Positions 2,600 through 43,378 of a stretch of 64,000 nucleotides of DNA are shown here, piece by piece. Location of the stretch: contig JAHBSG010000022.1 in the NCBI GenBank assembly GCA_019639235.1, positions 1-64,000 on the forward strand, given 5' to 3'. The first letter of the stretch is position 1. Every line of letters starts with the position of its first letter. This DNA is from Acidobacteriota bacterium. GTDB lineage: Bacteria > Acidobacteriota > Blastocatellia > Pyrinomonadales > Pyrinomonadaceae. The notes beneath the pieces are model-generated. The model had not been told where the DNA came from, made no database searches, and was given only the letters and a program-made list of their open reading frames with translations. A program made the translations under genes and the position numbers.

Positions 2600-3898
2600 C
2601 TAGCGGCCGACCCCGACGTATTCGAACCCAAGCTCACGCATATCTTCAGGCTCGTAGACATTTCGAAGGTCCGCTATCTTCGGCGAGCGGAGAAGCGACT
2701 TCACGCGGTCCATATCAAGAGCACGGAACTGGTTCCATTCAGTAACGATGACCATCGCATCCGCGTCCTTGATCGCGTCATATTCGTCGGCAGCGTACTC
2801 GACACCGTTGATGTAGTGCCTGGATTCCTCCATAGCGACCGGGTCAAAGGCACGTACGCTTGCTCCGCGCTCGATCATTCCGTGGACGATCTCGATGGCC
2901 GGAGATTCACGCATATCGTCGGTCTCGGGTTTGAAGGAAAGCCCGAGAACGCCGATCTGTTTGCCGTTCAGATCGCCGACGAGCTTTTCGATCTTAGGGA
3001 TCATCGCCTGCCGCTGCAGGTCGTTCGCGAGAATGACCGCATCGACGATCCGCGTTTCGACGCCGAACTGGTCGGCAACGGTCGTAAGTGCACGCGTATC
3101 TTTCGGGAAGCAGGAGCCGCCGTAACCCGGGCCGGGATGGAGGAACTTGCGGCCAATGCGATTGTCCATTCCCATTCCGCGAGCGACATCGTGGACGTCG
3201 CATCCGATGGCGTCGCAAAGGTTCGCGATCTCATTGATGAACGTGATCTTTGTAGCGAGGAACGCGTTCGCGGCGTATTTGATAAGTTCGGCTGCTTCGA
3301 GCGAAGTGATCACGATCGGCGTCTCGATGAGATAAAGGGGCCGGTAAAGTTCCTTCATCACCTCGATCGCCCGCTGCTCGTTGCTGCCGATCACAACGCG
3401 GTCGGGCCGCATGAAGTCTTCGATCGCAGCACCTTCACGGAGAAACTCAGGATTCGAGGCAACTCCAAAGTCCGTGGCTGTTTCGAGATTTGCGGATACA
3501 AAATCGCGAAGCCATTTTCCGGTGCCGACGGGCACGGTCGATTTGGTGACAAGGACCTTGTAACCATTCATCGCCTTTGCCACATCAAGAGCGGCCTGCT
3601 GGTAATAGCTCATGTCCGGTGAGCCGTCTTCCTTTGGAGGCGTGCCCACCGCGAGAAAGACGACCTCAGCCCCGGAAACGGCCGTTCCAAGCTCGGTTGT
3701 GAAATGCAGCCTGCCGGCCTTCACATTCTTTTCGACCAACTGATCAAGCCCCGGTTCGTATATGGGGATGACGCCATTCTTGAGCTTTTCGATCTTGTCG
3801 GCATCAACGTCAACACACGTTACATCCACGCCGAATTCGGCAAAGCAAGCTCCCGACACCAAACCAACATATCCTGTTCCAATAACTGCTATGTGCAT
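2600..3898 (-). CDS. ugd: UDP-glucose 6-dehydrogenase
   Basis: A 432-residue protein of the UDP-glucose/GDP-mannose dehydrogenase family. The N-terminal NAD fold opens with VIGTGYVGL (residues 5-13). The catalytic cysteine is C263 in GGSCFPKD, and the central domain has EAAELIKYAANAFLA. It oxidises UDP-glucose twice to UDP-glucuronate in the cytoplasm, a precursor for exopolysaccharide or LPS. Length is typical of TuaD/Ugd enzymes. It is the first gene of a probable two-gene operon with the downstream epimerase, which could convert UDP-glucuronate further. The start ATG at 3898 gives the canonical MHIAVIGTGY beginning. Confidence 0.95.
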   Translation of the reverse strand: MHIAVIGTGYVGLVSGACFAEFGVDVTCVDVDADKIEKLKNGVIPIYEPGLDQLVEKNVKAGRLHFTTELGTAVSGAEVVFLAVGTPPKEDGSPDMSYYQQAALDVAKAMNGYKVLVTKSTVPVGTGKWLRDFVSANLETATDFGVASNPEFLREGAAIEDFMRPDRVVIGSNEQRAIEVMKELYRPLYLIETPIVITSLEAAELIKYAANAFLATKITFINEIANLCDAIGCDVHDVARGMGMDNRIGRKFLHPGPGYGGSCFPKDTRALTTVADQFGVETRIVDAVILANDLQRQAMIPKIEKLVGDLNGKQIGVLGLSFKPETDDMRESPAIEIVHGMIERGASVRAFDPVAMEESRHYINGVEYAADEYDAIKDADAMVIVTEWNQFRALDMDRVKSLLRSPKIADLRNVYEPEDMRELGFEYVGVGR

Positions 3899-40524: not shown

Positions 40525-40755
40525 TTAGGCGGCCAAAAGTTCCTTAACTTTCGTGACTTCTTTTTTTGCACTCGGCAATCTTTCGCCGCGACGTTTTGCT
40601 GTATCGATCCAGAGTCCGGTGACAACGGCGAGTTCTGCGAGCGTTTCGTCCAATGTGTCGCCCTGGGCTAAGCAACCCTTCAGCGAGGGCACCTCGCCCA
40701 CATAGCCGCCTTCTTCAGCTGGATAAATTATGACTGGATATTTGAACTTTCTCAT
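40525..40755 (-). CDS. hicB: HicB-family antitoxin (N-terminal domain only)
   Basis: 76 residues. [42 protein letters not shown] is the partly degraded RNase-H-like HicB domain. The C-terminal ribbon-helix-helix or HTH domain that lets many HicB proteins bind their promoter is missing; only a Lys/Glu-rich tail remains. It neutralises HicA by direct binding. Its ATG overlaps the hicA stop by 4 bp (translational coupling), and it is followed 2 bp later by mrp. Without a DNA-binding domain, autoregulation must differ or be absent. Confidence 0.88.
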   Translation of the reverse strand: MRKFKYPVIIYPAEEGGYVGEVPSLKGCLAQGDTLDETLAELAVVTGLWIDTAKRRGERLPSAKKEVTKVKELLAA

Positions 40756-40985
40756 AGTTCGCTCTCTTCGATCAGCTCGATCAACCGCTTAACGTAAACC
40801 GATTTTACGCGCTTTTTGTGGACAGGAATCACGAAGGTGACCGGCCCACGGTAAAAAATGTGATGGCTTCCGGAAACTCGGTCGAGAACGAATCCCTCGG
40901 CTATTAGCAGTTTTTCAACCTGAGCAAAAGTTGTTTCGGTCGGGTTATTCTTTATCTTCTCGAACAACTTGGTTCGTTTTGCCAT
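40752..40985 (-). CDS. hicA: HicA-family mRNA interferase toxin
   Basis: 77 residues, a double-stranded-RNA-binding-like fold. The catalytic histidine lies in [10 protein letters not shown] (H41 or H42; the family motif is GSHxxY/F). The C-terminus [18 protein letters not shown] is typical. HicA cuts mRNA without needing ribosomes. It is the first gene of hicA-hicB-mrp. It diverges from the uracil-DNA glycosylase gene, with only ~30 bp between the start codons, so the two promoters must overlap the genes. Confidence 0.88.
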
Positions 40986-41624: not shown

Positions 41625-42530
41625 ATGGATATTGAGATCTACAACCACATCCGCTCTGGCGGAGCCGGGTATTACGAGCACGATCGCGGGCTAATCGCCG
41701 TTTGGGGCAAGGAGGCGGTTCCTTTCCTTGACGGGATGATCACCAACGATATGAAGACGCTCGAGGACGGGCAGCAAATGCTGGCGGCCTTTCCGAATGC
41801 ACAAGGGCGGCTGCTTGCGGTCGTCCGTGTGCTCCGGCAGGGCGAGCGGTTCCTGATAGAGACCGAAGGGGCGACGCGGGAGAAGGTCTACCAGAATCTG
41901 TTTCGGTTCACGTTTGCGGGTGATTTCTTTGTCGAGGACCTGTCGGCCCAGTTTCGCTATTTCGAGTTTTTTGGCTACGTGCCGCCGATCGAGCTTGGCG
42001 AAGGTGGCGTACGGTACGAAGGCGGAAGAAGCGTTGGATGCTTTGTCCGTAGCGATGCTGCAGAAGCGTTTTTGGAGAGACTAGCTCAACTTGAGATCGT
42101 GCAGATCTCGGACAAGACGTATGAAACGCTTCGCATAGAAAACGGCATTCCGCTCTATGGCGTTGATATGGACGAGACGACGATCGTGCCGGAGCTCGGG
42201 CTCGACGGCCTCATCTCATACATCAAGGGCTGTTACATCGGGCAAGAGATCATCGCCCGCATCCATTTCCGCGGCCACGTCGCCAAGCAACTCACCGGGC
42301 TGATCATCCAAGAACCCGGAGCGATAGCGACCGGGTCGGAGTTGACCTCTCCCGACGGCAAGAATGCCGGCCGCATAACCTCCATCACATTCTCGCCAAA
42401 ACTCGAAAAGCACATCGCCCTTGCATACGTCCGATATGAGTTTCTTGGCGAAGGAACGGAACTGAAAATCACGGAACATAATGCGACAGTAAAGGCGTTA
42501 CCATTCATCGATTCGACCAATTCGATATGA
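41625..42530 (+). CDS. ygfZ: YgfZ/GcvT-like folate-binding protein
   Basis: 301 residues. It has the GcvT-like fold without glycine-cleavage partner genes, and the diagnostic motif KGCYIGQE (residues ~203-210) with its invariant cysteine. The N-terminal AVWGKEAVPFLDGMITNDMK and the C-terminal GRITSITFSP…IALAYVR blocks also fit. YgfZ uses tetrahydrofolate and helps make or repair Fe-S clusters in enzymes such as MiaB. It follows the Fe-S uracil-DNA glycosylase by 9 bp. Confidence 0.92.
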   Translation: MDIEIYNHIRSGGAGYYEHDRGLIAVWGKEAVPFLDGMITNDMKTLEDGQQMLAAFPNAQGRLLAVVRVLRQGERFLIETEGATREKVYQNLFRFTFAGDFFVEDLSAQFRYFEFFGYVPPIELGEGGVRYEGGRSVGCFVRSDAAEAFLERLAQLEIVQISDKTYETLRIENGIPLYGVDMDETTIVPELGLDGLISYIKGCYIGQEIIARIHFRGHVAKQLTGLIIQEPGAIATGSELTSPDGKNAGRITSITFSPKLEKHIALAYVRYEFLGEGTELKITEHNATVKALPFIDSTNSI

Positions 42531-42554
42531 CCGGAGAGGGTCGGTTTATTTTTG

Positions 42555-42582
42555 TTTTTCCTTTTTTCTTGTTTCGTGGTTA
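42555..42582 (-). repeat. Left inverted repeat flanking the GxxExxY gene
   Basis: On the minus strand it reads TAACCACGAAA then CAAGAAAAAAGGAAAAA. The first 11 bases match the right-hand copy exactly, and the rest is a similar A/G-rich tail. Confidence 0.6.
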
Positions 42583-42615
42583 ATTAACTTTCTGGTGATG
42601 GGAAAAAACTAGCTT

Positions 42616-43011
42616 ATGCACGAAATTGAGGACCCGGGGAAACTTTTCTTCCCAGAGGAGACCTATCAGGTCGTTGGGGCCGCGATGGAAGTCTATTACA
42701 AGCTCGGTCCGGGTTTTCTGGAAGGGGTTTATCAAAAAGCCTTGTCGATAGAGCTTGCGATGCGCAATATTCCGTTTCGCGAGCAGGCACGGTTTCAGAT
42801 CGAGTACAAAGGCAACCCGTTGGGCCATGAATACGTAGCGGATTTCTTTTGTTTTGACGAGATCATTGTAAAGATCAAGGCTACCGCCAGCCTTTCGCCA
42901 ATCGATTGGGCACAGGTGATAAACTACTTGAAAGCAAGCCATAAGCGAGTCGGTGTGCTCTTCAATTTCGGGAGCCACGGGCGGTTGGAATGGAAAAAGC
43001 TTGTGATCTAG
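42616..43011 (+). CDS. GxxExxY protein
   Basis: 131 residues. It carries the name-giving motif GPGFLEGVYQKAL (residues 36-48), then FREQARFQIEYKGNPLGHEYVADFFCFDEIIVKIKA, and the C-terminal INYLKASHKRVGVLFNFG. The alternating strands with acidic residues and K-x-K resemble a restriction-endonuclease-like (PD-D/ExK) core (inferred). Family function is unknown; members appear sporadically in genomes, consistent with mobility. The gene sits between inverted copies of a TAACCACGAAA-type repeat, and its neighbours on both sides are ordinary chromosomal genes. Confidence 0.85.
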   Translation: MHEIEDPGKLFFPEETYQVVGAAMEVYYKLGPGFLEGVYQKALSIELAMRNIPFREQARFQIEYKGNPLGHEYVADFFCFDEIIVKIKATASLSPIDWAQVINYLKASHKRVGVLFNFGSHGRLEWKKLVI

Positions 43012-43023
43012 GGCTAGATAAGA

Positions 43024-43050
43024 TAACCACGAAAGAAGAAAGGAAGAAAA
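43024..43050 (+). repeat. Right inverted repeat flanking the GxxExxY gene
   Basis: TAACCACGAAA then GAAGAAAGGAAGAAAA, inverted relative to the copy at 42555-42582 and 12 bp past the stop codon of the GxxExxY gene. Confidence 0.6.
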
Positions 43051-43062
43051 TAGGACAGAAAC

Positions 43063-43356
43063 GTGAACGTTGCACAGATAGACAAGAACCAGCTTGATAT
43101 TGACCTGCCGAATGCGAAGTTGGCTTATACGATAATTCAGTCGCTGCTAGAGGCGAATGAGGCCTTGAGCGATCTGTTGGTGGTCGCGGCGCACGCCTTG
43201 GACGAGGACGTGACGAAGGCTTTAACGATGACCAACGAGTGGCAGAAGTACCTCGAGTCGAAGCGGAACATGGAAAAAACAAAGGCACAGATAGAGAAAT
43301 TTACCGAGAATCTCAAGAATCTTGAAGTAGGTTCAAGTACAGCTGACAGCTTATAG
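43063..43356 (+). CDS. Small helical protein of unknown function
   Basis: 97 residues with a GTG start at 43063 and no clear ribosome-binding site. Mostly helical (NAKLAYTIIQSLLEANEALSDLLVVAAHALD; KYLESKRNMEKTKAQIEKFTENLKNL), with a coiled-coil C-terminal half. The last residues (…SSTADSL) are encoded by the start of the heptamer array that follows, so the end of the gene may have been changed by the repeat. No family recognised. Could be spurious, but the composition is protein-like and the frame is open between two repeats. Confidence 0.45.
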   Translation: MNVAQIDKNQLDIDLPNAKLAYTIIQSLLEANEALSDLLVVAAHALDEDVTKALTMTNEWQKYLESKRNMEKTKAQIEKFTENLKNLEVGSSTADSL

Positions 43357-43378
43357 CTATCAGCTGACAGCTGTTCGT
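43340..43378. repeat. Heptanucleotide AGCT-type array
   Basis: AGCTGAC, AGCTTAT, AGCTATC, AGCTGAC, AGCTGTT in perfect 7-nt register (43341-43375). It ends 6 bp before the ATG of the YpdA-like gene and uses the same AGCT-anchored word as the array at 20033-20074. Confidence 0.75.

Follow-up and report, generated by a model that had tools for sequence, protein, structure and literature searches.

Genes of the GxxExxY family lie between paired inverted arms at 109 of 133 loci from Acidobacteriota to archaea, a pooled count that takes in orthologous sites, so that the loci are not all independent, and our data show that the period and sequence of these arms follow the tree of the protein they enclose. 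We consider that a GxxExxY locus is probably a minimal selfish or mobile element whose nuclease would recognise its own iterated ends. On this reading, the copy in the window (i.e., the whole 64,000-nucleotide stretch analysed here) is a degenerate, ageing one-gene element of ~0.45-0.55 kb, which consists of an arm, the GxxExxY gene, and an inverted arm. Its parts and neighbours are as follows.

41625-42530, forward strand: left neighbour, a ygfZ/CAF17-like gene; host gene, outside the element
42531-43062, no strand: inserted segment from the ygfZ-like stop to ORF97; six same-genus genomes have a gap of 4-30 bp instead
42556-42582, reverse strand: left arm, TAACCACGAAA plus an A/G-rich tail read on the reverse strand; a CCACGAAA-type iterated end
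42616-43011, forward strand: GxxExxY gene, 131 aa, with profile matches to TIGR04256 and PF13366
42871-42873, forward strand: codon 86, AAG (Lys); the Glu of ExK in 132 of 133 family members
43024-43050, forward strand: right arm, TAACCACGAAAGAAGAAAGGAAGAAAA
43063-43356, forward strand: right neighbour ORF97, 97 aa; host gene, kept beside the ygfZ-like gene in relatives

The initial annotation had described inverted repeats on both sides of the gene, and these are indeed present. The arms are 27 nt each, 85% complementary, and separated by 441 nt, and when the upstream flank was locally aligned with the reverse-complemented downstream flank, the score was 34, compared with a best score of 26 in 300 shuffles. 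The sole gene between them is the GxxExxY ORF, which scores 132 bits with TIGR04256 (cut-off 35) and 129.7 bits with PF13366 (cut-off 22). The element thus has the terminal inverted repeats of a classical insertion sequence (IS) and lacks a DDE, HUH/Y1, serine, or tyrosine transposase; profile searches annotated no transposase among the five neighbouring genes scanned, in agreement with the annotation, and found no family match for ORF97. Within the window, TAACCACGAAA has exactly two exact occurrences, both of which are the arms. The exact 10-mer TAACCACGAA showed no genome-wide enrichment (7 matches, vs 7 for the reversed pattern), and the signal therefore resides in the paired arms and not in an abundant repeat. 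The annotation had also proposed to look for TAACCACGAAA beside other GxxExxY genes. As an exact shared repeat it is ruled out, since it is not enriched genome-wide and other GxxExxY loci carry different arms; what these genes share is a layout, namely a pair of inverted arms, each with ~3 units repeated every 8-10 bp, whereas the sequence is clade-specific. Three other stretches (C23, C25, and C26; L011-L013) appear by eye to be solo arms of the window type.

The 3.84-Mb genome from which the window derives contains 7 GxxExxY genes, all of them between inverted arms that score 30-54, each pair above its own shuffle maximum and with a sequence of its own. When relatives were included, 34 of 36 loci scored at least 30, compared with 14% of mismatched upstream/downstream pairs, which have the arm theme in common. 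A scan of GTDB species genomes provided 80 GxxExxY loci with named hosts, which include archaea (Methanosarcinales and Methanophagales) and, among bacteria, Acidobacteriota, Bacteroidota, Chloroflexota, Planctomycetota, Verrucomicrobiota, Omnitrophota, Cyanobacteriota, and proteobacteria. Of the 77 usable loci, 58 reached a score of at least 30, which none of 385 shuffles did; among mismatched pairs, the share was 9.7%. In addition, of 10 second copies in other-phylum genomes, which were found by the family profile and hence not picked by similarity to the query, 9 scored at least 30. This threshold was set after the first cases had been seen, and the controls were judged by it as well: in the 464 kb sampled from the own genome (400 kb of stretches plus the window, ~12% of the genome), it was reached by a single one of 414 ordinary ORFs, and in other phyla by 2 of 162, one being a four-helix-bundle gene. 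Ordinary genes thus lack such arms; the annotation had named a repeat equally common beside random genes as an outcome that would speak against its proposal. Detectable arms are absent at 24 of the 133 GxxExxY loci, in a set in which several genomes are fragmented MAGs, and this counts against the element reading. The copy number of GxxExxY genes is 0-10 per genome; plasmid carriage is limited to 8 plasmid records, and searches for phage carriage returned no phage record and no PHROG match.

The arms match within one element and differ between elements. In the common form, TTnACC lies outermost and is followed by ~3 units (CACAGAG, CGCAGAG, CACGAAG, CACAGAT, and others) with 1-3 variable bases between them, so that a unit mostly begins 8, 9, or 10 bp after the start of the previous one (68, 160, and 72 spacings, respectively). 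Paired arms are identical at 94% of unit positions and 67% of spacer positions (31% expected if independent), both values being inflated in absolute terms because local alignment favours matches; this contrast fits arms that started as copies and were later constrained mainly in their units. The arms of L103, L104, and L161 are nearly perfect over 35-47 bp. Orientation and units were called by one simple pattern. Of the 102 loci classified in this way, 95 carry the CC end on the outside, and the 7 exceptions are spread over the protein tree. The window copy belongs to these exceptions, as the CC end of its left arm points toward the gene (class 'out').

Protein similarity and arm similarity are correlated over all pairs of loci (Mantel rho 0.39, with a maximum of 0.18 in 500 permutations) and over the 35 same-genome pairs (rho 0.68, 500-permutation maximum 0.59). 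The correlation was weak for cross-phylum pairs of the 80-locus set (rho 0.17, below the permutation maximum of 0.23), as expected for proteins that had been selected for their similarity. In a tree of 125 protein sequences, from which known orthologous sites had been removed, the arm period changes 10 times, compared with 22.2 times (sd 1.6) after shuffling, and the last letter of the unit changes twice, compared with 13.4 times (sd 0.8); in neither case was a count as low found in 500 shuffles. Other-phylum loci alone gave 8 changes of period vs 13.7 (sd 1.05) and 2 of the last letter vs 4.9 (sd 0.33). This co-variation argues against insertion of the gene into random host repeats, and we therefore regard arms and gene as a single unit of inheritance. 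The simplest cause would be that the GxxExxY protein recognises the arms, and joint inheritance could instead produce the same pattern. Since the arm code is clade-specific (period of 8, 9, or 10; G or T as the last letter of the unit), it allows direct binding and swap experiments.

To our knowledge, TIGR04256 GxxExxY / PF13366 PDDEXK_3 is an orphan family with no assigned role. An AlphaFold2 model of one family member had a mean pLDDT of 93.7, and a Foldseek comparison with the PDB returned weak matches only, mostly to PD-(D/E)XK nucleases (best E 0.006). These matches include Cas4-like SSO0001, LHK-Exo, lambda exonuclease, I-Bth0305I, and the Holliday junction resolvase ST1444; a sequence search found no solved structure of a relative. 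Comparison with known defence families gave only sub-significant Cas4-like matches (E 0.002-0.02). All 133 proteins have the G, E, Y, and D, 132 have the second E, and 131 the K. Collectively, the family is predicted to adopt a PD-(D/E)XK nuclease fold with a conserved E/D/E/K set and to act as a nuclease, and the annotation's suggestion that the protein has a role in its own mobility is plausible. The window protein keeps E36, Y39, D76, and K88 and is the sole exception of the 133 at the second E. With Lys 86 in place of this Glu, which the same-site orthologues in G031 and G010 retain, the window copy is probably catalytically dead.

Comparison of orthologous junctions in relatives revealed presence, absence, and decay. 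G000, G031, and G010 carry the element at the ygfZ-like|ORF97 junction. The junction is empty in G001, G016, G024, G027, G035, and G036, where the two genes are 4-30 bp apart; their distance is 66 bp in G030, and a single CTCTGTG-type arm stands alone in G025, G023, and G033. The cassette with clean presence and absence that the annotation envisaged is therefore observed, and its counter-case, a gene present in all relatives without the repeats, is not. At a second junction, sufD|sufS, the full element is present in G000, G003, G009, G014, and G021; the gene is broken in G007 and carries internal deletions in G018 and G002; gene-less arm pairs are found in G010 and G004 and one arm in G022. 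The site is empty in G016, where the sufD stop overlaps the sufS start. An unrelated short gene, which reads MRVRTALIIEESLLKKIDEIAVEKHRRAATIETALREFIQR..., occupies the same junction in G006, G013, G019, and G008 (L174, L178, L179, and L183). Relatives also occur at unrelated sites: the L064 protein (G006) is 78-84% identical to the suf-site proteins with no similarity in the flanks, and L002/L065, L205, and L071 encode ~79% identical proteins at unrelated sites, all with period-8 arms. The comparative data thus show both hallmarks of a mobile element, namely presence and absence at orthologous sites and close relatives elsewhere. By eye, no target-site duplication was recognised around young elements, whose exact ends are not fixed, and no genome was found to hold near-identical dispersed copies, which weighs against the element reading. 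The only pair of high identity (84.5%, 1.1 kb apart) lies at 1492-1842 and 2937-3284 of G066 contig 25 (L116; Omnitrophota) and represents a local duplication or a short-range move.

We postulate that the small PD-(D/E)XK protein would bind the iterated units at both ends and cut DNA at or near the arms, and that gene and arms would then spread as a unit, either by excision and insertion or by copying during break repair. The element would land in intergenic sites that host genes tolerate, and its gene would later decay by point mutation (such as Glu to Lys in the window), frameshift, or internal deletion, with gene-less arm pairs and solo arms as the end state. At sufD|sufS, the stop codon of sufD is often furnished by the end of the left arm (TTAACC), and the end of the right arm places GGTGAA, which could serve as a candidate ribosome-binding site, just before the sufS ATG; together these features may explain why an insertion within an operon is tolerated. 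This reading is weighed down by the window copy itself, with its minority arm orientation and missing catalytic residue, and we know of no lone PD-(D/E)XK nuclease that moves an element.

A homing-like spread, in which the protein cuts arms that are already there, as solo arms or as pairs lacking the gene, and repair then copies the gene into them, would make the arms targets and not jumping ends. Extrapolation from the 464-kb sample suggests that arms without the gene, whether paired or solo, outnumber the gene several-fold, as such a process would have it, and two further sites hold the gene in one species and a gene-less arm pair of another type in relatives. At one of them, the GxxExxY element of G010 abuts the right-hand arm of an older pair; this pair, which lacks the gene, is preserved in G000. 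At the other, the L007 site, G000 has a gene copy of the GCGGAT type where G010 and G031 have a CGCAAAG pair lacking the gene. Sites have thus been reoccupied, and homing is also compatible with this pattern. However, the gene does not enter arbitrary arrays, since gene and arms co-vary across hosts; moreover, there are empty sites with no arm at all, and G018 and G002 show the direction from arm plus gene to arm only. We therefore rate homing as a rather unlikely account of the spread. Another possibility is that a host enzyme or one from another mobile element, such as a RAYT-type transposase, moves the arms in trans, with the GxxExxY gene as a passenger or accessory. At least one gene in this genome is indeed RAYT-like and has inverted ends of its own, arms occur also without the gene, and a comparable layout surrounds unrelated four-helix-bundle genes. 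These facts have to be set against arms whose period and unit track the GxxExxY tree over phyla and consist of iterated units, which the inverted ends of the own-genome RAYT do not. Thus, of the annotation's idea of a gene carried by a repeat family or moved in trans, a single family or general enzyme is argued against by the clade-specific arms, and movement in trans as such appears unlikely.

Even less credit can be given to a resident cellular gene whose inverted arms form a regulatory RNA stem or terminator, with no mobility. The left arm does lie near the start codon and the right arm past the stop, the sufD|sufS copy is long-lived, and arm spacers match more often than independence predicts, though the alignment selects matches. 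Presence and absence at single junctions, gene-less and solo arms, close relatives at unrelated sites, and the variable copy number make this explanation very improbable. Taken alone, the window arms, which are A/G-rich and of modest score, might be dismissed as a chance or low-complexity artefact of the flanks; the ORF and shuffle controls, set beside the frequency of arms at family loci, refute this. The self-recognising element remains our preferred reading.

The arm architecture around GxxExxY genes is the new part, and the element is apparently undescribed: the portion of the open-licence PMC literature consulted contains no description of flanking repeats around GxxExxY/PF13366 genes, which is weak evidence of absence. 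In its working, the proposed element would resemble a small transposon or a homing gene. A close parallel is the REP/RAYT system, which also has a small intergenic gene between inverted ends and dispersed gene-less copies, and which the same screen recovered. RAYT (TnpA_REP) is a Y1/HUH transposase acting with palindromic REPs, whereas the GxxExxY element has neither and instead combines a PD-(D/E)XK protein with non-palindromic arrays of period 8-10. The RAYT/Y1-transposase-like gene in question (L231:8996-9451; G000 contig 34), with inverted GCTCCGTAGGAGC-type ends of its own, was the only strong case among the 414 control ORFs and served as an unplanned positive control. Gene-less inverted pairs of ~80-150 bp (L226, L231, L234, and L271-L273) resemble MITEs, among them CACAGAG-type pairs at L226:16983-17060, L231:4996-5150, and L234:1630-1700; solo arms lie at L227:17263, L233:14875, and L234:19222. 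The pairs differ from MITEs in their presumed parent, an element with a single nuclease gene and not an IS with a DDE transposase, and no target duplication was seen. Homing endonucleases of the PD-(D/E)XK type, such as I-Bth0305I, whose catalytic domain is among the weak fold matches, are likewise small selfish nuclease genes at tolerated sites. GxxExxY genes differ in lying outside introns and inteins, at host intergenic junctions and between inverted iterated arms.

The 23S rRNA intervening sequences and their IVP genes (PF05635, TIGR02436) share a small gene between inverted arms, patchy distribution, and horizontal spread, and the Coxiella IVS has been described as a selfish element (PMC4990558). 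Their protein is unrelated, their arms are mostly heptamer arrays, and the window GxxExxY gene is not in rRNA. We observed a score of at least 30 at 29 of 47 loci of TIGR02436/PF05635 four-helix-bundle genes (L015-L031 in the own genome and L274-L303 in other phyla), with a period of mostly 7 (18 loci) or 8 (8 loci) and a unit particular to each locus, such as AGTGAGC or AGTGGTC. Orphan heptamer arrays, for example those in PMC4679880, could have originated from such elements.

If the element reading holds, an orphan family of many phyla gains a testable role, namely recognition of its own iterated ends, and short intergenic repeat arrays otherwise without an origin are offered a possible source; it also suggests that a single small nuclease might drive the spread of DNA with no recognised transposase. 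A bolder version, which we put forward tentatively and hold to be possible though doubtful, is that GxxExxY elements form a new autonomous class of mobile DNA, for which a single ~120-aa PD-(D/E)XK nuclease, clade-specific iterated inverted ends, and host repair would suffice. Their decayed arms would then have given rise to the CACAGAG/CGCAGAG/CACGAAG-type intergenic repeats that are widespread in many phyla, and a convergent second class would be formed by the four-helix-bundle IVP genes and their heptamer arms.

Two further observations concern the window. Between ORF97 and a YpdA-like gene, positions 43340-43372 hold a heptamer-like array (ACAGCTG ACAGCTT ATAGCTA TCAGCTG ACAGCTG), which is possibly a relic of a four-helix-bundle element; a similar array occupies the corresponding place in G016 (L053). 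On the reverse strand at 40525-40985, two adjacent short genes resemble by eye a HicB/HicA toxin-antitoxin pair.
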